Source of the DNA: Desulfobacterales bacterium RIFOXYA12_FULL_46_15 | GTDB lineage: Bacteria; Desulfobacterota; Desulfobacteria; Desulfobacterales; Desulfobacteraceae | Length of the DNA: 36,207 nucleotides | Assembly: GCA_001799395.1 (NCBI GenBank) | Contig: MGTJ01000096.1 | Coordinates: 1-36,207, forward strand | Direction: 5' to 3' | Part shown: positions 5,541 to 29,426 of the stretch, one piece after another | How positions within the stretch are numbered: position 1 is the stretch's first letter | Layout: the number at the start of each line of letters is the position of its first letter | Notes under the pieces: model-generated | The model's database searches: none | Seen by the model: the letters and a program-made list of their open reading frames with translations, nothing else | Told to the model about the DNA's origin: nothing | Made by a program: the position numbers and the translations under genes

Positions 5541-6510
5541 GAAGACAATTATCAAGGCCCGGAATCTGAAAAAATATTATACCATCAAAGACGGGATGAT
5601 TTTTAAAACTTCTTCAACCCTGAAGGCACTGGACGGTGCTTCTTTTTCCATAAAACCTGGGGAAACATTTTCAGTGGTGGGTGAATCAGGCTGTGGAAAA
5701 TCCACCCTTGCACGGCTGATCACCATGATTGAAAGACCGACGTTCGGGGATTTTGAAGTTGATGGGATTAATGCCGTCACCAGCGATCCTGAGGCTATGA
5801 AAGCCTTGAGAGAAAGGGTTCAGATAGTTTTTCAGGATCCTTACGGATCTTTGAATCCCAGGAAAAAAGTAGGTGCAATCCTGGAAGAACCGCTTTTGAT
5901 CAACACGCAGCTCAATGCGGCTGAACGACGGGAAAAAGCACTGGCTATCATGGAAAAGGTCGGGCTTAGAAAGGAGCAGTATTCACGGTATCCCCATATG
6001 TTTTCAGGGGGGCAGAGACAGCGTATTGCCGTAGCAAGAGCCTTGATGCTGAATCCCAGCCTTGTGGTGGCGGATGAGCCGGTGTCAGCCCTGGATGTTT
6101 CCGTTCAGGCCCAGGTTCTGAATCTTCTCATGGATCTCCAGGATGAGATGAATCTTGCCTATTTATTCATCTCCCATGATTTGAGTGTTGTCCAGTTGAT
6201 TTCAAACCACGTCATGGTCATGTATCTTGGCAGGCCGGTGGAACAGGGCGAAAAGGATATTATTTTTGGAAACCCGATCCATCCTTATACAAGAGCTCTT
6301 CTTGCGGCAACTCCGCATGTGGACGGAAAAGACCGAACCAAGAGAATCATTTTAACCGGGGAAATCCCTTCTCCACTCAACCCGCCTTCAGGATGCACGT
6401 TTCATAAGCGCTGTGTCCATATGACCGATATCTGCAAGGAGACTGCCCCGGAATTCCGGTCAGTGGCGGAAAGAATGGTCTCTTGCCACCATGCTGAAAA
6501 ATTTAGCTGA
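5533..6510 (+). CDS. dppF: Dipeptide ABC transporter ATPase DppF
   Basis: A 325-residue second ATP-binding subunit of the Dpp importer. It has Walker A GESGCGKST, Q-loop VFQDPYGSLNPR, signature FSGGQRQR, Walker B LVVADEPVSALD and switch region ISHDLSVV. The C-terminal extension again has the cysteine pattern (GCTFHKRC, later C residues) of the oligopeptide family. The start overlaps the end of dppD (ATGAATGA). It is the last gene of the operon; strong hairpins follow from 6692. A degenerate copy of its Walker B region is found at 11380-11467. Confidence 0.93.
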   Translation: MNEKTIIKARNLKKYYTIKDGMIFKTSSTLKALDGASFSIKPGETFSVVGESGCGKSTLARLITMIERPTFGDFEVDGINAVTSDPEAMKALRERVQIVFQDPYGSLNPRKKVGAILEEPLLINTQLNAAERREKALAIMEKVGLRKEQYSRYPHMFSGGQRQRIAVARALMLNPSLVVADEPVSALDVSVQAQVLNLLMDLQDEMNLAYLFISHDLSVVQLISNHVMVMYLGRPVEQGEKDIIFGNPIHPYTRALLAATPHVDGKDRTKRIILTGEIPSPLNPPSGCTFHKRCVHMTDICKETAPEFRSVAERMVSCHHAEKFS

Positions 6511-7046: not shown

Positions 7047-7320
7047 ATGTTCCATAAACAAACAGTCAGATATTACGGTTGGTATTCGAACAAATCCCGG
7101 GGATGAGAAAAAAGGTTGGAACAGATGATGCCATTCCTGCGGTTATGCCAAATGACAGGTCTTCCAAAGAATCACGGCAGAACTGGGCACGCCTGATCCA
7201 AAAAATTTATGAGGTTGATCCACTGGTGTGTCCGAAGTGCCAGGGAACCATGAGAATTATCAGCTTTATCGAAGAACTTGACATTATCGAAAAGATATTG
7301 CGCCATTTGGATCTTTGGGA
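7047..7320 (+). pseudogene. IS91-type transposase, C-terminal remnant with a frameshift
   Basis: Reading from 7047 gives MFHKQTVRYYGWYSNKSRG, the conserved RYYGWYSN-SRG stretch of IS91-family (Y2) transposases, then a stop. One base out of frame, within the GGGG run near 7100, the protein continues with RQNWARLIQKIYEVDPLVCP and KCQGTMRIISFIEE, the typical zinc-ribbon-like end of these transposases. The catalytic N-terminal part (HUH and paired tyrosines) is absent. Similarity stops after LDLWD near 7320, where the sequence turns into a metallo-hydrolase remnant. This is a dead mobile-element scar. Confidence 0.75.
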
Positions 7321-7629
7321 CATCCGCAGCCATATCATTTCTCAAATCAATCGGGTCATAAAGCCTTTCATGCCGTGATCGGCGGAACCCATCTTGGTTT
7401 TTTGAATTCAGACGACCAGCTTGAAAAAACCATGGATGCTTTTGATCAGTATCAACTCAAACTGATAGCCGTCTCCCACTGCACCGGCAAGGAAGCAGCT
7501 GCCGCCTGTTACAACCGCTTTAGGGAAAGATTTGCCTTTGCCATGCCGGCTCTGGCGGATTCAGCTTTAATCAGAAATTCTACAGCACCTAAAACATTCA
7601 TCTTGATTGTAAATTATAGTGAGGTCTAG
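7321..7629 (+). pseudogene. MBL-fold metallo-hydrolase, C-terminal remnant
   Basis: From 7366 the frame reads HAVIGGTHLGFLNSDDQLEK and then LKLIAVSHCTGKEAAAACYN and RFRERFAFAM. This is the characteristic end of small MBL-fold hydrolases related to the dihydropterin-aminobenzene synthase group. One base out of frame just upstream, RSHIISQINRVIKPF resembles the preceding GHxGI-type segment, so a single-base deletion near 7365 probably broke the gene. The N-terminal HxHxDH half is missing. The reading continues without recognisable similarity to a stop at 7629, overlapping the end of the convergent kinase gene by four bases. Confidence 0.7.
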
Positions 7630-13475: not shown

Positions 13476-13916
13476 CTATTCCCAGTCAAATTCCCTTGAT
13501 GTTACCGTGTCCTCCATTCTCTGGATGCGGCGTTCAATGTTTTCAAATTTTTTTTTGATTCTCCGGATGGCCGATTGTCTTGAATGGGAATAGGTATCAT
13601 AAAATTCAGCATCATCTTCATCCCTCAGCGGGGAAACCGGCTCCATTTTCAGGAAAAGACCTGCCATTATATACATGACACCCACAGGCCAGAACCCGGT
13701 AAAAAGAAATAATAACAGGGTGATGATTCTCAGCCAGAAAACACTGAAATCAAAATAGTCAGCCAGGCCGCGGCAGACTCCCATGAAGATGCCCCTGCGG
13801 GACCGGTAGATGCCGCGGCTGGAGGCCAGGGTTTCAAACCGGTCCTTGAGTCCGTTGTAATGTTTCCTGCATGTTTCAAACTGGAAATTGTGTTTATATC
13901 CATGATATCGTCTCAT
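13476..13916 (-). CDS. pspC: PspC-domain protein of the phage-shock operon
   Basis: 146 residues. The PspC domain is in the middle: RSRRGIFMGVCRGLADYFDF followed by the hydrophobic segment LRIITLLLFLFTGFWPVGVM and a second one to about residue 90. A charged C-terminal helix (RRIKKKFENIERRIQRMEDT) resembles the PspC coiled-coil tail. It has an unusually long basic N-terminal stretch of about 35 residues before the domain. In the Psp response, PspC with PspB senses envelope stress and draws PspA to the membrane. The start overlaps the pspB stop by four bases (ATGA), and GGAAGG lies upstream. Confidence 0.9.
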   Translation of the reverse strand: MRRYHGYKHNFQFETCRKHYNGLKDRFETLASSRGIYRSRRGIFMGVCRGLADYFDFSVFWLRIITLLLFLFTGFWPVGVMYIMAGLFLKMEPVSPLRDEDDAEFYDTYSHSRQSAIRRIKKKFENIERRIQRMEDTVTSREFDWE

Positions 13917-14164
13917 TTGCTGAATTCCTTCCTTTTACGCTCAATCAATATGGTTTCAAGCGCTTCAACCCGTTCTTCCATTTTTGATAGCCCGTGATAG
14001 ATGTCCTGGATCATCCGGGTTTCTTCTGTCTGGGCCTGTTTATTTTTCCCGGCCAGACCTCCGGACTTGGAAGCCTTGATGATACCGATGATAACCAATC
14101 CGATGGTGGCGATGATGAGGATTGCCCCGCCAATGGAGATGCCTATGACAAGTGCGTGAAACAT
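13913..14164 (-). CDS. pspB: PspB-like small membrane protein
   Basis: 83 residues: one N-terminal membrane helix (about residues 5-30), then a linker and a heptad-like helix ETRMIQDIYHGLSKMEERVE followed by ALETIL. This is the standard PspB layout and length. PspB partners PspC as the membrane sensor. It is placed between pspA (36 bp upstream) and pspC (4-base overlap). GGAG is upstream at a rather long spacing. Confidence 0.88.
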   Translation of the reverse strand: MFHALVIGISIGGAILIIATIGLVIIGIIKASKSGGLAGKNKQAQTEETRMIQDIYHGLSKMEERVEALETILIERKRKEFSK

Positions 14165-14200
14165 AATCTTGTTACTCCGGTTGAGTTAGTGCCTGATAAT

Positions 14201-14884
14201 CTATGCATCAATTTTATCATCATTTTTCAAAGATTGGGAAGATTTTAATTGATTGAGTTCGGCTTCGATTTCATCATCTGCTTCTAGGGCATCAAACTGG
14301 TTTTCAAGAGATGATGGCCTGCCGAAGTCTACAAGGTCGGCTTCCGCTTCCATCCGCTCGATCTGCTGTTCAAGCTCTTCAAATTTCTGCATGACTTCGG
14401 AGCTGTCAGCCCTGCGGATTTCCTCTCTTGCTTTTTTTTTGTGTGTAGCCCGAAGATGTCTTTGAACCAGCATCCTCTGTTTTTCCCGGGCAGATTTCAG
14501 CTTGTTTTCAAGTTCCTGTATATCATCCCTGTATTGTTCAATCATTACACTAAGTTCTGTGATTTCAGCCTGGATGACTTCAGCCTTCAGGGTATACCGT
14601 CTTTTCTCCTGAAGCGCCTGGCGTGCCAGGTTGTCTTTGCCTTTTTGAACAGCGAGTTCCGCTTTCCGGTTCCAGAAATTTTCTTTTTCGTCAACCTCAT
14701 CCTGAAATCTCTGGGCTTTTTTCTGACCGGCAATGGCATTGGCACATGAGGTTTTTATTTCAATCAAGGTGTCTTCCATCTCCCTGATCATCAGCCTGAT
14801 CAGTTTTTCCGGATCTTCTGCATTATCCAGCATGGAATTGATGTTTGATGCAACAATATCTTTAAACCGTGTAAAAATTCCCAT
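14201..14884 (-). CDS. pspA: Phage shock protein A (PspA/Vipp1/ESCRT-III family)
   Basis: 227 residues from the ATG at 14884, which gives the family N-terminus MGIFTRFKDIVASNINSMLD and has GGAG upstream; the longer reading to 14917 is rejected. The protein is almost wholly coiled coil, with the conserved DPEKLIRLMIREMEDTL segment. It binds PspF in unstressed cells and coats damaged inner membrane under stress. It is the first gene of pspABC, expressed from the sigma-54 promoter at 14946-14961. Confidence 0.94.
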   Translation of the reverse strand: MGIFTRFKDIVASNINSMLDNAEDPEKLIRLMIREMEDTLIEIKTSCANAIAGQKKAQRFQDEVDEKENFWNRKAELAVQKGKDNLARQALQEKRRYTLKAEVIQAEITELSVMIEQYRDDIQELENKLKSAREKQRMLVQRHLRATHKKKAREEIRRADSSEVMQKFEELEQQIERMEAEADLVDFGRPSSLENQFDALEADDEIEAELNQLKSSQSLKNDDKIDA

Positions 14885-14945
14885 TTTGTTTCTCCTTGTG
14901 TTTTGTTTTTCAGCCAACCTATTGTTTCAGTTTGTTGATAGGGTT

Positions 14946-14961
14946 AGCATTTTGTGTGCCA
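14946..14961 (-). promoter_or_regulatory. Sigma-54 (-24/-12) promoter of pspABC
   Basis: On the minus strand the sequence is TGGCACACAAAATGCT: a perfect -24 element TGGCAC, then the -12 GC exactly 10 bases after the GG. The predicted start would be near 14935, giving a leader of about 50 bases before pspA. The divergent neighbour encodes PspF, the activator that acts on this kind of promoter. Confidence 0.85.
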
Positions 14962-15009
14962 GGCAGGCCTTGTTATGAAATGCCTTTTAATATCATGCAG
15001 TTATAAATA

Positions 15010-15039
15010 TTGACAGCTAAATTGATATCGTGGTACTAT
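15010..15039 (+). promoter_or_regulatory. Likely sigma-70 promoter of pspF
   Basis: TTGACA (15010-15015) and TACTAT (15034-15039) are separated by 18 bases. The predicted start near 15046 gives a leader of about 60 bases before pspF. It lies 50-60 bases upstream of the sigma-54 promoter on the other strand, where PspF-binding enhancer sites are expected, so autoregulation is likely. Confidence 0.6.
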
Positions 15040-15106
15040 CCGCCATATATTGAGTATTTCAGCCAAATATTGATAAAAATTACAGTTATGATTTTTGGAG
15101 ACAATA

Positions 15107-16192
15107 ATGATTTTGCCGGATCAGGATCAATATCAGGACAGGGGAAAATCTTTTTCAGGGCCTGAGGCCATAGGTCAGTCAGAAACATTTATTGAATTCC
15201 AGGAGCAGATATCAAAAGTGGCACCCATCGACCGGCCGGTTCTCATCATTGGAGAGAGAGGGACAGGAAAAGAGCTTGCTGCATCAAGAATTCATTTTTT
15301 ATCAAAGCGATGGTCAAAGCCCTTGGTGACTTTGAACTGTTCGGCTCTGACCCCCGGGCTTATCGGGTCTGAGTTATTCGGATATGAAAAAGGTGCCTTT
15401 ACCGGTGCCACCTCCCGGAAAGCCGGCCGGTTTGAGAAAGCCTCGGATGGTACACTTTTCCTGGATGAAATCGGGGCAATTCCCATGGAAGTCCAGGAAA
15501 AAATTTTGCGTGTGGTAGAGTATGGGAGTTTTGAGCGGGTGGGGTCTTCCGATTCCGTCGATGTGGATGTCAGGATTGTGGCCGCCACCAATGCCGATCT
15601 GGAACAAATGGCACAGTCCGGGAAGTTTAAACAGGATCTTCTGGACAGGCTTTCCTTTGAGGTGGTCTATGTGCCGCCGCTGCGTAACAGGAAAGAAGAT
15701 ATTATCATCCTGGCGCAATATTTTGCCGGAAGAATGGCTTATGAACTCGGATGGGACGACATCCCGAAAATCTCCGGAAGTGCAGTGAAGGCACTTGAAT
15801 CCTATTCCTGGCCGGGTAATATACGGGAATTGAAAAATGTAATTGAGCGGGCCGTATATAAATCTTCATCGCATAAAATTGAAGAAATCACCTTTAATCC
15901 GTTCACCTCTCCCTTCCGGGTATGCCTTGGAAACAGCGATAAAGGGATAATGAAAAAAAAGAGTGAGAATCAGGCAACGGATTCTCCTGAACTAGGGGAA
16001 GCGGATTTTATCGATCCTGTCAATCAGATTTTCAAAAAACCTTTCAAAGAGGCCATGAGGAGCCTTGAAAAGGTCATTTTATCCAGAACCCTTAAGGAAT
16101 GCCGCTATAATCAACGAACGGCAGCCAAAAAACTTGGATTATCCTATGATCAGCTCAGGGGGCTTGTGAAAAAGCATGGCAGCAAAATTTAA
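15107..16192 (+). CDS. pspF: PspF, sigma-54-dependent activator of the psp operon
   Basis: 361 residues from the ATG at 15107 (GGAG six bases upstream; a TTG four codons earlier is rejected). There is no N-terminal receiver or sensor domain, as usual for PspF. The AAA+ domain has Walker A GERGTGKE, the sigma-54-contact loop GAFTGAT, Walker B GTLFLDEIG and the R-finger region ending DRLSFEVVYVPPLRNRKEDI. The C-terminal Fis-type helix-turn-helix is NQRTAAKKLGLSYDQLRGLV. An additional 60-residue linker (about 270-330) is longer than in E. coli. It should activate pspABC when released from PspA. A perfect palindrome (16207-16222) follows the stop. Confidence 0.93.
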   Translation: MILPDQDQYQDRGKSFSGPEAIGQSETFIEFQEQISKVAPIDRPVLIIGERGTGKELAASRIHFLSKRWSKPLVTLNCSALTPGLIGSELFGYEKGAFTGATSRKAGRFEKASDGTLFLDEIGAIPMEVQEKILRVVEYGSFERVGSSDSVDVDVRIVAATNADLEQMAQSGKFKQDLLDRLSFEVVYVPPLRNRKEDIIILAQYFAGRMAYELGWDDIPKISGSAVKALESYSWPGNIRELKNVIERAVYKSSSHKIEEITFNPFTSPFRVCLGNSDKGIMKKKSENQATDSPELGEADFIDPVNQIFKKPFKEAMRSLEKVILSRTLKECRYNQRTAAKKLGLSYDQLRGLVKKHGSKI

Positions 16193-19519: not shown

Positions 19520-20701
19520 TTAAAGGGCCAAAATGGTATCTGCGAGTTTGCCTATGGCTGTTTGAATGGTTTTTTCATCAGCCATGGTGTAATTCAGACG
19601 CATAGTTTCGATTCCTTCGGTTTCATCCGTGAAAAAGAATTTCCCTGGTACAAAGGCAACCCCGTTTTCAATGGCCTTATGATATAACCGGATCATATCA
19701 AATCCTTCAGGGCCTTTTACCCATAAAAACATACCGCCGTCTGAGGGAGAACAGACAAACTCTTTGGGCAGGTGTTCATTTATGGCAGACATCATGGCTG
19801 CTTGTTTGGGTTTGTAAAGGCTGATGATTTTGGGCAGATGGGTTGAAAGATAATTACCTTCCAGATATTCTGCAGCCAGGGCCTGGTTAAAAGTGCTGGT
19901 ATGAAGATCTATCCCCTGTTTTACCAGGACCAGCCATTTTCTCAAAAATTCCGGGGCCGCATAAAATCCGATTCTCAATCCTGGCGCAAAAATTTTGGAG
20001 AGGGTGCTGACATAGATGACATGATCCTCTGCCATGGTTTTGATCGCAGGCAGATTTTCCCCTTTATACCGGAGGGCGCTGTAGGGATCATCTTCCACCA
20101 GAAGGGCATTGTATTTTTTAATGATGTCCGCAATCTTTATCCGCCGATCCAGGGTAATGGTTCTGCCGGTTGGATTCTGAAAGGTCGGCACCAGGTAAAT
20201 AAATTTAATTTTATGGGTTTTCAGGGTTGCTTCAAGGGATTCCGGTATAAGGCCGTCATCATCCATGTCCATGCGGACATAGGTGGGTTCATAGGGATTG
20301 AAGGCGGAAAGGGCTCCCAGATAAGTAGGGGCCTCCAGGGCGATTTTGTCCCCTTTGGAGATGAGAAGCTTGGCTATGGCATCCAGGACCCCCTGAGATC
20401 CGGAGGTGATATTGACAGCGTCGGGAGGGGTTTTTATCCCACGGGATTCAAGCAGAACAGACACCTGTTCTCTTAAAGGGAGAAAGCCTTCGGTAAGATC
20501 ATATTGAAATGCACCGGATGAATATTTGGTTAAGACTTTGTCAGTCAGTTCTCTGAAAATTTCCATGGGAAAGCTTTCAGGAGACGGAATGCCGCCTGCA
20601 AGGGAAACCACGCCGGGTCTGGCTACAACTTTTAAAATTTCCCTGATGGCATTGGCTTTCATCAATTCTGTCCTGTCTGCAAGAAGGGCTTGATAATCCA
20701 T
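19520..20701 (-). CDS. PLP-dependent class I/II aminotransferase (2-aminoadipate/aromatic type)
   Basis: 393 residues from the ATG at 20701 (AGGAG upstream; the reading to 20803 is an over-extension). It is a fold-type I aminotransferase: GVVSLAGGIPSPESFP at the N-terminus, NITSGSQGVLDAIAKLL, the VPTFQNPTGRT loop, EDDPYSALRY, the PLP lysine in STLSKIFAPGLRIGF and the substrate-carboxylate arginine near MRLNYT. It most resembles the LysN/AroJ-like group that has 2-aminoadipate, aromatic or branched-chain amino acids as substrates; the exact substrate cannot be read from sequence. It lacks the winged-helix part of MocR regulators. The selenoprotein gene lies 162 bases upstream in the same direction. 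Confidence 0.88.
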   Translation of the reverse strand: MDYQALLADRTELMKANAIREILKVVARPGVVSLAGGIPSPESFPMEIFRELTDKVLTKYSSGAFQYDLTEGFLPLREQVSVLLESRGIKTPPDAVNITSGSQGVLDAIAKLLISKGDKIALEAPTYLGALSAFNPYEPTYVRMDMDDDGLIPESLEATLKTHKIKFIYLVPTFQNPTGRTITLDRRIKIADIIKKYNALLVEDDPYSALRYKGENLPAIKTMAEDHVIYVSTLSKIFAPGLRIGFYAAPEFLRKWLVLVKQGIDLHTSTFNQALAAEYLEGNYLSTHLPKIISLYKPKQAAMMSAINEHLPKEFVCSPSDGGMFLWVKGPEGFDMIRLYHKAIENGVAFVPGKFFFTDETEGIETMRLNYTMADEKTIQTAIGKLADTILAL

Positions 20702-20863
20702 ACTATTTCTCCTGAAAGGCGGAGATCTTAAATTAGGATCTCCGGCCGGATCAAAGGGGTTCATCCTTAATAATTTTAAACGATCATGACCACAAATTAG
20801 CATACTGGAACGGAATTAACAGATACAGATTTATGAAAAAACCGCCATAACACATTGCCTGTA

Positions 20864-21046
20864 TTAGAGCCGGTCGATGGGAATATTGGCGAGCTGTTCC
20901 TCAAGATAATCATCCATAAGGTCTTTATATTTGTCTTCGGGGTATTTTTTTGCGCAGGACCTGCAGCAGAAATAAATTTTTGTTCAGGTTCTTTTAATAT
21001 AGAGCTTCCCGCCGCAGGAGAGGCATTTTTCTTTTATATCATGCAA
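20864..21046 (-). CDS. Dual-CXXC small selenoprotein (UGA = Sec at codon 21)
   Basis: A frame with a single internal TGA (20984-20986) runs from 21046 to a TAA at 20864-20866 and gives 60 residues. It reads HDIKEKCLSCGGKLYIKRT, then UGA, TKIYFCCRSCAKKYPEDKY, KDLMDDYLEEQLANIPIDRL. Two CxxC pairs (residues 8/11 and 28/31) flank the UGA, and the tail IPIDRL resembles that of a small Desulfobacterota family that occurs in Cys and Sec versions. A GGTC-apex hairpin begins 15 bases after the UGA, as in bacterial SECIS elements. The start is TTG, with AGGA 8 bases upstream; no in-frame ATG exists between the upstream stop and the first CxxC. It is probably a redox or metal-binding protein; its function is unknown. 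It is co-directional with the downstream aminotransferase gene. Confidence 0.8.
20951..20968 (-). promoter_or_regulatory. Candidate bacterial SECIS element
   Basis: On the minus strand TGCTGCAGGTCCTGCGCA folds as TGC-(T)-GCAG/CTGC-GCA, a 7-bp stem with a single bulged T and a GTC loop closed by a G-C pair, displaying GGUC at the tip. The loop begins 22 bases after the UGA. The E. coli fdhF SECIS has a similar GGUC apex about 18 bases after its UGA. SelB bound here would direct selenocysteine insertion. Confidence 0.7.
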
Positions 21047-21150
21047 AAGGTTTATCCTTTATCTTTTAATGTCTTGAAGCTAAAATAAGGCCAAACCGGA
21101 TAAAAGTCAAAAATTATAAAAATCAGGCATAAAAGGAGTATTCATCATCC

Positions 21151-21633
21151 ATGGAAAAGAATGAGGACAGATACAGGCGCAATTATCCCATTTCCTGGGA
21201 GCAGCTTCACAGGGATTCGAAAGCCCTTTCATGGCGGCTCCATGATATGAACCAGGTCTGGAGAGGCATTGTCGCCGTCACGCGGGGAGGACTTGTTCCG
21301 GCAGCGGTCATTGCCCGGGAACTTGGTATCCACCATATTGATACGGTCTGTATTACCAGCTACAACTGGCAGAATCAGGGTGAAACAAAAATTTTAAAGG
21401 CGGTTGAAGGGTCGGGCAGGGATCTGTTGATTATTGATGATCTGGTGGATACAGGGTCCACTGCAAAAATTGTGAGGAAAATCTTACCCGAGGCATATTT
21501 TGCAACCGTTTATGCCAAACCTGCGGGAAAACCCCTGGTGGATGCCTATGTGACGGAGGTGAGCCAGGACACCTGGATTCTTTTCCCCTGGGATTCGGAA
21601 TCCCAATTTGTGGAACCTATTGCCGGGAAATAA
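21151..21633 (+). CDS. gpt: Xanthine(-guanine) phosphoribosyltransferase
   Basis: 160 residues, almost the size of E. coli Gpt (152) and similar throughout: GIVAVTRGGLVPAAVIAREL, then IDTVCITSYNWQNQGE, the PRPP motif LLIIDDLVDTGSTA, and PAGKPLVDAYVTEVSQDTWI. It makes XMP/GMP from xanthine or guanine and PRPP, a salvage reaction in the cytoplasm. AAGGAG lies 12 bases before the ATG, a somewhat long spacing. It is divergent from the selenoprotein gene and convergent with argG, with a hairpin between the two. Confidence 0.93.
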   Translation: MEKNEDRYRRNYPISWEQLHRDSKALSWRLHDMNQVWRGIVAVTRGGLVPAAVIARELGIHHIDTVCITSYNWQNQGETKILKAVEGSGRDLLIIDDLVDTGSTAKIVRKILPEAYFATVYAKPAGKPLVDAYVTEVSQDTWILFPWDSESQFVEPIAGK

Positions 21634-21687: not shown

Positions 21688-22917
21688 CTATTTTTTCTTA
21701 TCCATAATGTTTTTATGGGCCATGAGGCGGATGGCGTTGATCTTGATAAAACCTTCCGCATCTTCCTGATTATAGCCGCCGGCAATATCCATGGAGGACA
21801 TATCCTGATTATAAAGTGAAGACGGGCTGGTTCTGGCAATGGGGTAAGCCGTGCCTTTGAACAGTTTCAGGGTTACTTCTCCGTCAATGACTTCCTGGCT
21901 CTTGTTGATGGCCACCATGAGAAACTCCATTTCAGGGCTGAACCAGAATCCGTAATATACCAGCTCTGCGAATTTGGCAGACAGCATGTCCCGGAGCCGC
22001 ATGACTTCCCGGTCCATGGCAATGCCTTCAATATCTTTATGGGCGACATGGAGGATGGTTCCGCCGGGAGTTTCATAGACTCCCCTTGATTTAATCCCCA
22101 CAAACCGGTTTTCAACCATATCCAGCCGGCCGATCCCGTTTTCCCGGCCCATCTGGTTGAGGTATTCAAACAGCGCCAGGGGATCGGTCTTGATTGTGTT
22201 GTCATTCAGATTGGTCACTTTAACCGGGATACCGTCCTTGAATTCGAGTTTGATCTTTGTCGGGGTATCCGGTGCTTTTTCCGGGGCAACGGTATGCGAA
22301 TAAATGCTTTCTTCACATTCATGGCCCGGATCTTCAAGGATTCCGGCTTCATGGGAGATATGCAGAAGATTGTCGTCTTCACTATAGGGTTTGGACGCCG
22401 ACTGTTTGGTCGGGATGCCGTGTTTTTCCGCATAGGCCAGAAGATCGGTCCTGCCTTTGAAAGTATTTAAAAATGCCGTATTCTTCCAGGGAGCAATGAC
22501 TTTGATTTTCGGGTTCAGGGCATAATAGGACAATTCAAACCGGACCTGGTCGTTTCCTTTTCCTGTTGCGCCATGGGCCACAAACTCGGCCCCCACTTCC
22601 TTTGCAATTTCGATCTGTTTTTTGGCAATCAGGGGTCTAGCAACCGCGGTTCCGAGAAGATAGCGGCCTTCATAGATGGTATTGGCCTTAAACACAGGAA
22701 AGATATAATCCGTGACAAATTCTTTTTTCATGTCCACGATGAACACTTTTTTTGCGCCGATTTTCAATGCTTTTTGTTCGGCAGCCGCAAAATCTTCTTT
22801 CTGTCCGATATCGGCCATATAGGCATATACGTCATACCCTTGTTCCAAGAGCCATTTCAGTATGACCGAGGTATCAAGTCCGCCTGAATAGGCCAGAACA
22901 ACTTTTCCTTTTAACAT
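21688..22917 (-). CDS. argG: Argininosuccinate synthase
   Basis: 409 residues, the full family length. The ATP-pyrophosphatase P-loop is at the N-terminus ([18 protein letters not shown]). Further family motifs are [23 protein letters not shown], the [18 protein letters not shown] block, and [19 protein letters not shown] with YETPGGTIL. It joins citrulline and aspartate to argininosuccinate with ATP, the penultimate step of arginine synthesis. GGAG precedes the ATG. No other arg genes are in the window. Confidence 0.96.
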
Positions 22918-25725: not shown

Positions 25726-25766
25726 AGGTATTGTTCAATTCGACAAATCAAAATAAGGAGAAAACA

Positions 25767-26093
25767 ATGGAAGCATTATTGATAATTGATATGCAGACGG
25801 GATTATTTTTAAATACCCCGCGGTTTGATGCCAAAACCATCATCAGCCGGATATCCAGTTATTTTAGGGATACGGATAAGCCTGTGGTGTTTATCCAACA
25901 TGACGGAACCAGGGAAGATTATCTTTTTCATGGTTCCCCTGACTGGGAGGTACTCCCGGATCTCATAAAAAGTGAAACCGATATGTTTATTGAAAAGACT
26001 GCCAATGATGCATTCTACAGAACCGGATTGAACAGCTATCTTCAGCAGAAAGGGATTGAAAACAAATGGAATCTTGATAAAGACAGTATATGA
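25767..26093 (+). pseudogene. Isochorismatase-family hydrolase, C-terminally truncated
   Basis: 108 residues from an ATG with AGGAG upstream. The first part is typical (EALLIIDMQTGLFLNTPRFD with the catalytic Asp, then PVVFIQHDG and EKTANDAFYRTGLNSYLQQK). Family members run to about 180 residues and have the nucleophilic cysteine in a GxxTxxCV motif just where this one ends with an unrelated tail NKWNLDKDSI. The catalytic lysine (EKT) is present and the cysteine is not. The gene looks cut by a deletion, with the AAA-Lon gene following convergently 21 bases away. Confidence 0.7.
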
Positions 26094-26114: not shown

Positions 26115-29100
26115 TTATTCCATATAGTGTTTAAATATCTGTTCATGTGAAATATAGAGTTCCCGTTCAGGGTCCATCAGGTATTTCCGGATGGCATTGA
26201 CCCGTCGGATAATTTCTTGTTCCGCCCTTTTTCTCATTTCTTTTTTTGTCTCAATAATGGTTTCCTTGAGCATGGGTGTTCTTTCAGCCGCAGAATATTT
26301 TTCACTTTTCAGTCTGATCCGCATATCAATCAATATCTCGAGCTGCCGGGTATGGTTTTCGTCAAGAAACAGGACTTCGGGGATGAGATCGGCAAAATGG
26401 GTAACGGCAATAATATCTTTTTTCCGCTGCCAGTATCCCATGAGAAATTCCGGTTCAAGGTCTTTATAATTCTGCAGGGGCATGTACATCCGCCGAAGGT
26501 ACAGGAGGACCTTTTCGGTTTTTTTCCTGTGCCCGCCAATGATAACGGAACCGCCCACTTCATCTTTTCTGACACCCTTGGTCCATGGCGCTCCTGTGAT
26601 CCCGAAATCAATACACAGGGGAATCCTTAAAAGGGCAGAGAGGGTATTTAAGGCCAAGGCGTAACCGGCCGAGGGTCCACCCACATTGTAAGAGGCGGAT
26701 AGGAGCTGATGATGAAGGGAATATCGCTGCAGAAAATCGCCGAAAATCCATGGAATGCTGAAATCCGGAGCCAGTTCCTGTATATAATTTTTGACCATGG
26801 TCAGGGCTTCCTGGGCAGACTGTTTTGTCATCTGGACGGCCATGTCCATTTGAGCCATATTGGATGCAGACGAGGAAACAGCACCGGTCACGATAATGGG
26901 TGATCCTTCCACCCGACCAGTGAGACTCGTGGCAATGGGCAGAAGCATTCCTGAAACATCGTTGGCACCCGCACCAATGATAAACCCGACCTGGGGCTCC
27001 TTGCTCAGTTCCGTTTCCAGGAATTCATTGAGTTGAACAGATCCTTTTCTCACCGGGCTCTGGGATATTTCCCGCCGGGCAGATTCAAGATGAGCTTCCA
27101 CAATGGGGTAATCTTCTTCAGAAGCAATGTGGTCCACATTGGAAAGGATCAGATCATAGTGCTCAACAAAATTTTTAATATCATGTTTTATCTTTGATTT
27201 GATCAAAGGAGGTGCTTTGACGGCATCCAGTATACCGATGATGGTTTTAAAATTCAATTTGATAAAATCGCATTTTTCCAGGGAGGTGGAGGTTTTAAGC
27301 TGCCTGAGTTTTAAAAGCACTTTGTATTCCGTGCTGCAAAGTGCGATGGCCTTTTCGGTAAAGGAGGTATAATCGGCCGGTGTATTGCAGATCCCCTGAG
27401 CGGTTTCAATGATTTTCTCAATTTCAAATTCCCGTTTATGGGGAAGGGCTTCAAATTGTTTTCTGATAATGTCAAAGATGTCCTTTTGACTCATATATCC
27501 CGATATTTCAAGGGTTTTCAGCCTTTTTGAACGGATCAGGGCAGGGTCGAGAATATCCAGCCGGTTGGTGGTCAGGACCGTAAATACCTTGTTGATCGGG
27601 ATCTCCCCGTCAATGATATTTAAGAATTTATTGGTCAGGGCATCGGAGGGCTGGCCGCCGGTGGCGCTTCTTCTCGGTGCCAGGGCATCCCCTTCATCAA
27701 AGAAGATGATGGTGGGTGCGATCATCTTGGCAATATCATATACTTTTTCAAGATTTGAGACCGCACCATGGACCGGGCTGGAAGGGTCCTGAAGGGCCGT
27801 GGGGCTGGTTGCAATATCATGAACCCTTAAATTGGAAGAAAGCCAGGTCCTGACCAGAAAGGTCTTGCCGCTGCCGGGCGGGCCGGTGAGCACAACACCC
27901 TTGTCCTCACTGATACCGTAACTGAAGCAGTTGTTGGCCATTTCTGAAAATTTATCCTTGATATCTCCCACATACTCGTCCCATTGAACCGTCCGGTCCA
28001 TGCGGTCGACAACCTTGCTGTAAAGTTCACCATAGACATTTTTGGCAACCAGTTCAAATGCACTCCGGATCAGGATACCGTTGTCCAGGAAATTAAGGAG
28101 AAAATCCCCCCGGATATGGATAATGGATTCAATGAGTTTTCTGACATAGGCCGGGCTGATTTTAAGGCTTCGTTCTTTAAATACGGAATAGATTTTTTCA
28201 GCAGCATGATCAAGCTTGGTGCAATCCTCTGTGTATTGTGTCGGAATCTGGTGCCGTTTGATTTCAAGAAAGATGATTTTTTTAAGATTCCCGGCATTCA
28301 TCCAGTATTTTGACATATCAATGATACAGCCTTTTTCCACAAACCGCCGATATATGGCGGAATCAAACCTGTGGGTCTGATCTGAGGTGGCAATGACAAA
28401 ACAGTCTCTTCTCCCATCAATGATTTCATCCAGAACAATATTGGAGGTGTCAATCAAGGTCCGCTGCTGTTTCTCAGCACCTCCGCTCCCATAGCTGCTT
28501 TCCGATTTCCCAAAGGCGGAATGGGCTTCTTCGATATGCCGGATGGAGGTGATTTTGGGGTGGCCCATGGCCCGTTTAAAATAATTTCCAGGTTCTCCTG
28601 ACAGGGCCGTCTGGTAATCATTGGGTGTGATAATGGAGGAATCAACCGGGATGCCCCGTTCTTCAAAATATGTCAGGTTGCTCATGATACGTTTTTTAAA
28701 AATGAATCGCAATACCGGAATCCCGGCAAGACGGCTGTAAAAGATCTGTTTTCTTTTTCTGGCGATTTTCATGGCAAATTCAGGGTCAACATCGGCAAGG
28801 CTGGTAAAAAGGCTGTGTTTTGCAAGAATTTCTTTTTTCTTCTTTTTCCAGTCAATGGTTGGGATCACTTCATTTCTGAACACCACTTTTTCAAGCGCTT
28901 CCCTTACCGTTGCACTCTTGCCGCTGCCTGAGGAGCCTTCAATCAGAACAATGGGTGCTTTGGGGACACCGGGATCTTCAATATGCTCTTTTCTGATATG
29001 GGCACGGTATATTTTATCAAATGTTTCTTCCAGCTCAAACGGGACATGAAGATCTGTCAGATCCTTATCCAGAACGGCAATCAGATAGTGATATTCAACC

Positions 29101-29426
29101 TTGGCCAGTTCTTTTTCAATGATCATATCCCAGGATGCACCCGGGTTGGTTTCTCCTGAATATAAAAACCTTTTTTTCCAGTCCCTTAAAATTTCAGGAT
29201 TGTTCAGGACATTCATTTTTCTTGTTCTTCTTTTCATGAAAAATAAAAAGAAAAAAGATTCTTTCAGAAAAGAAATAAAGGGATGGGGCGGTTTATACTG
29301 ATTCAGGCGGGATCGGACAAAGGCCTTGGTGTCATAACTCCATGTCGCAACAAGTGCTTCAATCTTTTTTATGGAGTCTTCCGAAAGCCGGATAAATATC
29401 TTTTCTTTGGTGGTTCTTTTTGCCAT
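26115..29426 (-). CDS. AAA-AAA-Lon (S16) protease fusion, 1103 residues
   Basis: Order: a 45-residue N-terminal segment resembling a ribbon-helix-helix; a short hydrophobic patch (50-63, FISFLKESFFFLFF); AAA+ module 1 with Walker A GSSGSGKS (164-171) and a weak Walker B (IRHIEEAH, 295-302); AAA+ module 2 of FtsH/CDC48 type with Walker A GPPGSGKT (515-522), Walker B IIFFDEGDA (573-581) and sensor TTNRLDILDPALIRSKR; and a C-terminal Lon S16 domain (about 800-1020). In S16 the nucleophile is Ser919 in GGPSAG, and Lys969 in GGHRKK aligns with the Lon catalytic lysine (GGLKEK). GMLLPIATSLT and IIVTG match Lon. It should be an ATP-driven protease. It is 30 bases downstream of an SPFH gene. I know no described protein with this layout, although the parts are familiar. 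Confidence 0.85.
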   Translation of the reverse strand: MAKRTTKEKIFIRLSEDSIKKIEALVATWSYDTKAFVRSRLNQYKPPHPFISFLKESFFFLFFMKRRTRKMNVLNNPEILRDWKKRFLYSGETNPGASWDMIIEKELAKVEYHYLIAVLDKDLTDLHVPFELEETFDKIYRAHIRKEHIEDPGVPKAPIVLIEGSSGSGKSATVREALEKVVFRNEVIPTIDWKKKKKEILAKHSLFTSLADVDPEFAMKIARKRKQIFYSRLAGIPVLRFIFKKRIMSNLTYFEERGIPVDSSIITPNDYQTALSGEPGNYFKRAMGHPKITSIRHIEEAHSAFGKSESSYGSGGAEKQQRTLIDTSNIVLDEIIDGRRDCFVIATSDQTHRFDSAIYRRFVEKGCIIDMSKYWMNAGNLKKIIFLEIKRHQIPTQYTEDCTKLDHAAEKIYSVFKERSLKISPAYVRKLIESIIHIRGDFLLNFLDNGILIRSAFELVAKNVYGELYSKVVDRMDRTVQWDEYVGDIKDKFSEMANNCFSYGISEDKGVVLTGPPGSGKTFLVRTWLSSNLRVHDIATSPTALQDPSSPVHGAVSNLEKVYDIAKMIAPTIIFFDEGDALAPRRSATGGQPSDALTNKFLNIIDGEIPINKVFTVLTTNRLDILDPALIRSKRLKTLEISGYMSQKDIFDIIRKQFEALPHKREFEIEKIIETAQGICNTPADYTSFTEKAIALCSTEYKVLLKLRQLKTSTSLEKCDFIKLNFKTIIGILDAVKAPPLIKSKIKHDIKNFVEHYDLILSNVDHIASEEDYPIVEAHLESARREISQSPVRKGSVQLNEFLETELSKEPQVGFIIGAGANDVSGMLLPIATSLTGRVEGSPIIVTGAVSSSASNMAQMDMAVQMTKQSAQEALTMVKNYIQELAPDFSIPWIFGDFLQRYSLHHQLLSASYNVGGPSAGYALALNTLSALLRIPLCIDFGITGAPWTKGVRKDEVGGSVIIGGHRKKTEKVLLYLRRMYMPLQNYKDLEPEFLMGYWQRKKDIIAVTHFADLIPEVLFLDENHTRQLEILIDMRIRLKSEKYSAAERTPMLKETIIETKKEMRKRAEQEIIRRVNAIRKYLMDPERELYISHEQIFKHYME

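Follow-up and report, generated by a model that had tools for sequence, protein, structure and literature searches.

The question raised by this locus is whether a short minus-strand frame broken by a TGA is a gene and, if so, what the TGA encodes and what the product does. The frame lies in the window (by which we mean the whole stretch of 36,207 nucleotides that was analysed) and has the 61 codons, stop included, that the earlier note had given it: 60 codons, one of which is TGA, followed by TAA. Its two CxxC pairs are at codons 8-11 and 28-31 and the TGA between them is codon 21; an additional Cys, at codon 27, adjoins the second pair. The TTG start with AGGA upstream, also proposed in that note, was found at 21046-21044, with AAGGA at 21059-21055. 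No other start codon occurs in the interval from the upstream stop to the first Cys; among 15 loci of the same genus, the equivalent start position is TTG in 14 and GTG in one, and AAGGATAAA or a close variant lies upstream of the start in most genus relatives. Directly past the TGA comes TGCAGGTCCTGC, in which the GGTC apex of the GGUC-tipped hairpin begins 22 bases downstream, as had been described. The protein ends in IDRL and its tail is acidic. The gene and its surroundings are laid out as follows.

20864-21046, minus strand: very probable selenoprotein gene, 60 residues, NF041197 CxxC_Se_CxxC; TTG start, codon 21 TGA = Sec, stop TAA at 20864-20866.
20984-20986, minus strand: in-frame TGA, codon 21, very probably read as selenocysteine; a Cys codon in Cys-form relatives.
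20953-20965, minus strand: SECIS-like apical stem-loop of 5 pairs, GTC/GGTC apex, inside codons 28-32.
21055-21059, minus strand: AAGGA, likely ribosome-binding site, 8 bases before the TTG.
21014-21025, minus strand: first CxxC, codons 8-11, likely the first knuckle of a putative metal site.
20954-20965, minus strand: second CxxC, codons 28-31, likely the second knuckle of that putative site; these codons also hold the SECIS apex.
19520-20803, minus strand: neighbouring PLP-dependent aminotransferase-like gene (family matches below cut-offs).
21151-21633, plus strand: xanthine phosphoribosyltransferase, divergent neighbour.
21688-22917, minus strand: argG, beyond the xanthine phosphoribosyltransferase gene.

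The identity of the product is given by the NCBIfam model NF041197 (CxxC_Se_CxxC), which matches residues 8-60 over model positions 1-53 of 53 with 75 bits against a curated cut-off of 40 (the same gene scores 65.7 bits in the genome-wide search with this model). The R-x-U motif and the two CXXC flanking the Sec are present in the window protein, and the small dual-CXXC proteins that the earlier note had in mind, occurring with either Cys or Sec, are this family. A further match, to the RDAC family, has an E-value of 0.034. Judging from its sequence, the window gene almost certainly encodes a real selenoprotein, one that belongs to a known family, NF041197 (OS_HP3, RxU clade, here clade I). 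It is an ordinary, well-supported member of a small family already catalogued from sulfate reducers and related bacteria: with NF041197/OS_HP3 it shares, by the model and by the available portions of the review tables, the full-model match, the dual CXXC, Sec at R-x-U and the small size, and it differs in nothing essential, being a Desulfobacula-like member with a TTG start.

In the available text of a 2026 review (PMC13188914), OS_HP3, with the motif RxU, stands under NF041197, citing Zhang and Gladyshev 2007, and NF041197 is listed a second time as ‘hypothetical protein DW’, with the motif GxU. The DW protein is reported in the deep-Sep paper (PMC12013277, in the part of it available), which we infer to be the citation of the 2026 review for DW. 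Within the same limits, the accession SMF39960.1 is assigned to OS_HP3 in a 2022 review (PMC9312934) and to DW in PMC13188914, so the names OS_HP3 and DW may be partly confused. DW comes under the same NCBIfam model as the window gene, and the sister clade II has G-x-U and the same layout; the window gene differs from DW in belonging to clade I, with R-x-U and an NRL/DRL tail. By its authors' own account, in the available part of PMC12013277, the 2025 predictor deep-Sep missed an OS_HP3 gene in Desulfosarcina widdelii, so the genes of this family remain easy to lose; the window gene was found from raw sequence although standard ORF calling truncates it at the internal stop. No cellular function for the NF041197/OS_HP3/DW family was found in the open-licence papers searched.

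Evidence that the TGA is translated comes from the pattern of codon changes among 14 genus sequences, compared pairwise, so that the counts are not independent. Over the 39 codons past the TGA, codon positions 1, 2 and 3 show 566, 266 and 1232 changes (915 synonymous codon differences vs 704 others); before the TGA, the figures are 366, 305 and 733 (492 synonymous vs 469 others). Coding constraint, as read from this third-position bias, continues beyond the TGA. Moreover, the frame is beyond chance: alignments of 54-60 residues link it to dozens of relatives in which this very codon is still TGA or else encodes Cys. The reading of UGA as selenocysteine, first put forward in the earlier note, is supported by these relatives, which do not end before codon 21, the outcome that the note had set against its own proposal. 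Of the 86 genomes in the GTDB family to which the window's genome belongs, 64 have an NF041197-type match and 22 have none; the match contains TGA in 53 of the 64 (in one of these, G034, it is weak and to a fragment only) and reads through without a stop in 11. A plain stop, where the TGA would end a 20-residue peptide and the remainder decay, fits the presence of TGA in the frame and the lack of any ORF of 80 residues there in table 11 ORF finding, but is very improbable given the third-position bias past the TGA, the keeping of the TGA across families and the Cys at the same place. Hardly credible is an altered code in which TGA is read as Trp or another residue: the frame is indeed open when the TGA is read through, but 5 of the 14 genus relatives (L010, L011, L012, L017 and L035) close this gene with a TGA, which therefore serves as a stop codon as well, and the exchange partner at codon 21 is Cys.

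The Cys at codon 21 is found in one genus of the GTDB family, in 11 of 11 cases. Matches above the family cut-off occur in 173 of the 291 genomes of the order and in 88 of 395 of the phylum; the family is widespread in its order. Relatives were listed down to a score of 15. Among the 170 matches of at least 28 bits, 163 have the pattern C..C - [UC] - C..C, and the seven that depart from it are four rows of the frameshifted G048 gene and three relatives with CxC; all these matches except the frameshifted G048 copy have Cys or Sec at codon 21, as the note had anticipated. In 63 chosen clade I sequences, a set that omits L117, L120, L123 (CxC) and L124, the residues C8, C11, C/U21, C28 and C31 are invariant.

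Some relatives are of interest in their own right. L117, L120 and L123 are divergent and TGA-bearing, and their first pair is CxC rather than CxxC. The G048 copy (L071/L075, on G048:C137) is a genus relative split by a frameshift just past the TGA, for which decay or an assembly error is possible. Finally, L124:2447 (+), on G421:C63, is a 15-bit relative with a Cys immediately before the Sec (a C-U pair).

How the UGA is decoded can be proposed from the machinery and from the hairpin: SelB with Sec-tRNA would read the UGA of codon 21 as Sec, the hairpin immediately downstream serving as guide. The machinery, for which the earlier note had suggested a search, is all present in the window's genome: tRNA-Sec (76 bits), SelB (341 bits), SelA (609 bits) and SelD (373 bits, its gene having an in-frame TGA). 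tRNA-Sec was found in 66 of the 86 genomes of the GTDB family and, across the phylum, in 77 of 78 chosen TGA-form genomes, the miss being G317 and four of the 77 (G233, G191, G431 and G290) having weak matches of about 49-53 bits. As a discriminating test, tRNA-Sec fails, since it was also found in all 44 of the other genomes (in one of them scoring 49 bits), a set made up of 26 genomes whose clade I gene is of the Cys form and 18 genomes lacking a match. Four of the 26 Cys-form genomes also hold a TGA-bearing copy below the cut-off. Read-through frames of the window were inspected by eye, and no second hidden Sec gene was evident.

A SECIS of the E. coli fdhF type is a GGUC-tipped hairpin that follows immediately on the 3' side of the UGA. 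The window hairpin shares this position and this apex, and differs in the weakness of its lower stem; some clade II stems, moreover, are shifted towards the UGA. Folded alone, the hairpin has an energy of -7.0 kcal/mol (z -0.63), which 50 of 200 shuffles equalled; by itself it is not unusually stable, and the case for a SECIS rests on comparison between sequences, not on folding energy.

The comparison of Sec and Cys forms was made on distinct sequences with scores of at least 28, without the G048 copy (L071/L075). In the GTDB family, all five apical pairs are present in 37 of 44 Sec vs 0 of 11 Cys sequences, and pair 26-30 in 38 of 44 vs 0 of 11; the four lower pairs are still formed in all 11 Cys forms, and pairs 23-33 and 24-32 occur in every sequence compared because the two Cys codons supply them. 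Since the 11 Cys forms belong to one genus, this contrast may reflect one event. Among clade I sequences outside the GTDB family, all five apical pairs are found in 24 of 46 Sec vs 0 of 24 Cys forms; of these Cys forms, 6 do make pair 26-30 taken alone and 16 have GG in the loop. In clade II, the corresponding figures for all five pairs are 17 of 35 vs 0 of 2. The motif CRSC is kept in 41 of the 44 Sec forms of the GTDB family, and its Cys forms (n=11) have CDAC (7), CDTC, CNAC, CAAC or CDGC. This suggests that the RNA element may dictate the CRSC residues of the Sec forms, and makes the Sec/Cys comparison a clear case where an RNA element seems to constrain protein residues.

Covariation was assessed on 95 sequences drawn from 126 distinct Sec sequences, with close relatives thinned by hand. 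The proportion of paired cells is 86.7% vs 83.1% in shuffled alignments and the covariation score 0.285 vs 0.230, and neither value was reached in 500 shuffles, although related sequences may exceed such shuffles without any structure. Two of the five whole-structure measures, namely pairs with both-side changes and further pair types, are not above shuffles in these 95 sequences. Pair 26-30 occurs as G-C (30), A-U (14), C-G (10), G-U (5) and U-A (1), and is unpaired in 35; across the phylum, 25 of its cells are altered on both sides. A shift of the partner by -2 raises the both-side changes from 25 to 31, but with 60.2% paired. With the two measures named above not exceeding shuffles and this shift giving more both-side changes, only the percentage paired and the covariation score single out the structure. 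Within the GTDB family, no both-side change was seen at any pair. In 11 clade II sequences, chosen because the stem looked shifted, it lies 4-7 bases nearer the TGA and is fully paired, and four of them are altered on both sides of one pair.

Profile comparison shows clade II itself to be a homologue of clade I (hhalign probability 98, E 1.6e-13). Two family matches are found in 32 of the 112 matching phylum genomes, the second usually being a lower-scoring G-x-U copy with TGA; the window's own genome has a single match only. Judging by the motif, clade II (GxU) is probably the published DW protein. It first looked new, its genome matches being below the cut-off, and was rejected as a new family: when Sec is read as Cys, three of five TGA-bearing proteins pass the cut-off of 40 (46.1, 46.2 and 42.0 bits; the other two score 35.6 and 35.0), and the available text of PMC13188914 places the GxU protein DW under the same model.

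Two arrangements of clade II genes may be mentioned. At L144 (G313:C5), a clade I and a clade II gene lie about 4 kb apart on one contig, at 5984 and 10061. At L114, L178, L179, L182, L183, L184 and L189, the clade II gene is tail-to-tail with a DsrP-type gene (sulfate-reduction complex), at 35-71 bases, and such a gene is also near the clade II gene in L111, further off.

As for structure, the clade I model (pLDDT 69, pTM 0.41) places residue 21 in the turn that joins two strands, 14-19 and 24-28, and has helices at 37-43 and 46-52; the clade II model (pLDDT 80, pTM 0.53) has strands at 12-16 and 23-26 around the Sec and one long helix at 35-51. Foldseek gave no match at E <= 0.001 for either clade, and the top match for clade I is a methyltransferase (E 0.25). 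Among its weak matches, zinc ribbons are frequent, including those of RNA polymerase subunits, topoisomerase I and ribosomal proteins, and when solved chains were searched by profile, 2jrp, HypA, YfgJ and LysW were among the weak matches. With zinc ribbons such as those of an RNA polymerase subunit, LysW and the HypA zinc domain, to which the matches are weak, the protein would share CxxC knuckles around a beta hairpin; an invariant Sec or Cys in the hairpin turn is not known from these ribbons.

In the reading favoured here, a single metal ion, probably zinc, would be bound by the two CxxC pairs within a ribbon-like fold, and such a metal-ribbon scaffold is reasonably likely. The Sec would then be exposed in the hairpin turn between the pairs, and the conserved [N/D]R[L/I] end could dock on a partner; clade I relatives have NRL/DRL/DRI/IIYD-like C-termini. 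A single reactive selenol or thiol might serve in redox exchange or in carrying a sulfur or selenium group; it is favoured over a dithiol-type CxxU site because no Cys stands at CxxU spacing from the Sec. This reactive-selenol role is proposed tentatively, and the redox or metal-handling role that the earlier note had suggested is likewise a conjecture.

Another possibility, rather unlikely on present evidence, is that the Sec of such a metal-ribbon protein acts as a metal ligand or transfer residue, as in a metallochaperone or metal sensor, and not as a redox nucleophile. The two CxxC pairs with their four invariant Cys, together with the Cys/Sec that makes a fifth invariant position (in the 63 chosen sequences), would suit such a role, as would the weak profile match to HypA, a nickel-incorporation protein (3a43, E 1.7e-4), but that match spans positions 21-54 only, the model puts the Sec in a turn about 10 residues from the first knuckle and 7 from the second, and no metal transporter or regulator was noticed among those recurring neighbours that were given names.

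The neighbours were clustered over 167 loci of unequal length, some genomes being counted twice. TruA, ArgJ, FabD and DsrP were named by family search with one member each, and the MltD-like and PyrE-like names are the author's reading. No phylum-wide partner gene emerged from this clustering, and the co-directional neighbours are lineage-specific: the PLP aminotransferase-like gene is downstream in 13 loci, the window included, an MltD-like gene is present in 15, FabD is upstream in 6, and a PyrE-like gene is upstream of Cys forms in 7. Genome context was accordingly set aside as a guide to function, since the neighbours change between lineages and share no common partner.

In 14 loci, each from a different genome (L036, L051, L059, L060, L061, L062, L067, L070, L073, L132, L134, L139, L141 and L164), the clade I gene is followed on its own strand by TruA, a tRNA pseudouridine synthase, which overlaps it or lies at most 100 bases away in 12 of them. 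These genomes belong to the GTDB family of the window's genome and to five other families of the order, and an operon of the clade I gene with TruA is possible outside the window's genus. Such adjacency hints at translation or tRNA modification and gives weight to the idea, on balance still unlikely, of a ribbon that binds nucleic acid, or tRNA or RNA polymerase, possibly linked to tRNA modification, in which the Sec/Cys is a redox switch. The weak fold matches to the ribbons of RNA polymerase, topoisomerase I and ribosomal proteins point the same way, but matches of this kind are common for small zinc ribbons and none reaches E <= 0.001; TruA, moreover, is not a neighbour in the window's own genome, and the window protein's tail is acidic.

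LysW carries its substrate on a C-terminal Glu. A carrier of the LysW type, a ribbon that would present a persulfide or selenide covalently bound on the Sec/Cys to enzymes, finds some encouragement in weak LysW matches (3wwl, E 0.07, for clade I; 5eio, E 0.77, for clade II) and in the presence of argG or ArgJ nearby in some lineages, but is doubtful: the C-terminal Glu is absent from the window protein and from its clade I relatives, ArgJ is divergent, and an opposite-strand gene separates argG in most loci.

The reactive-selenol proposal can be carried further, into what is frankly a speculation: a metal-ribbon scaffold whose exposed selenol, at the hairpin tip, would pass sulfane sulfur or selenium from one enzyme to another, perhaps in the direction of tRNA modification, in a family with two Sec-using clades and a SECIS that dictates part of the protein.

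Elsewhere in the window, a fragment at 7079-7378 (+) resembles the C-terminal part of an ISCR-type transposase (a weak match, with no Pfam match). The gene at 25764-26093 (+), apparently truncated, encodes an isochorismatase-domain protein (PF00857) of about 109 residues that reaches only model position 114 of 175. The 1103-residue protein of 26115-29426 (-) appears to be an unusual fusion, a CDC48/FtsH-type AAA stretch being followed by a Lon-protease-like C-terminal part, with every family match below cut-off. Finally, 13476-16192 holds a phage-shock cluster of PspC, a PspB-like protein (below cut-off), PspA and a divergent PspF activator.
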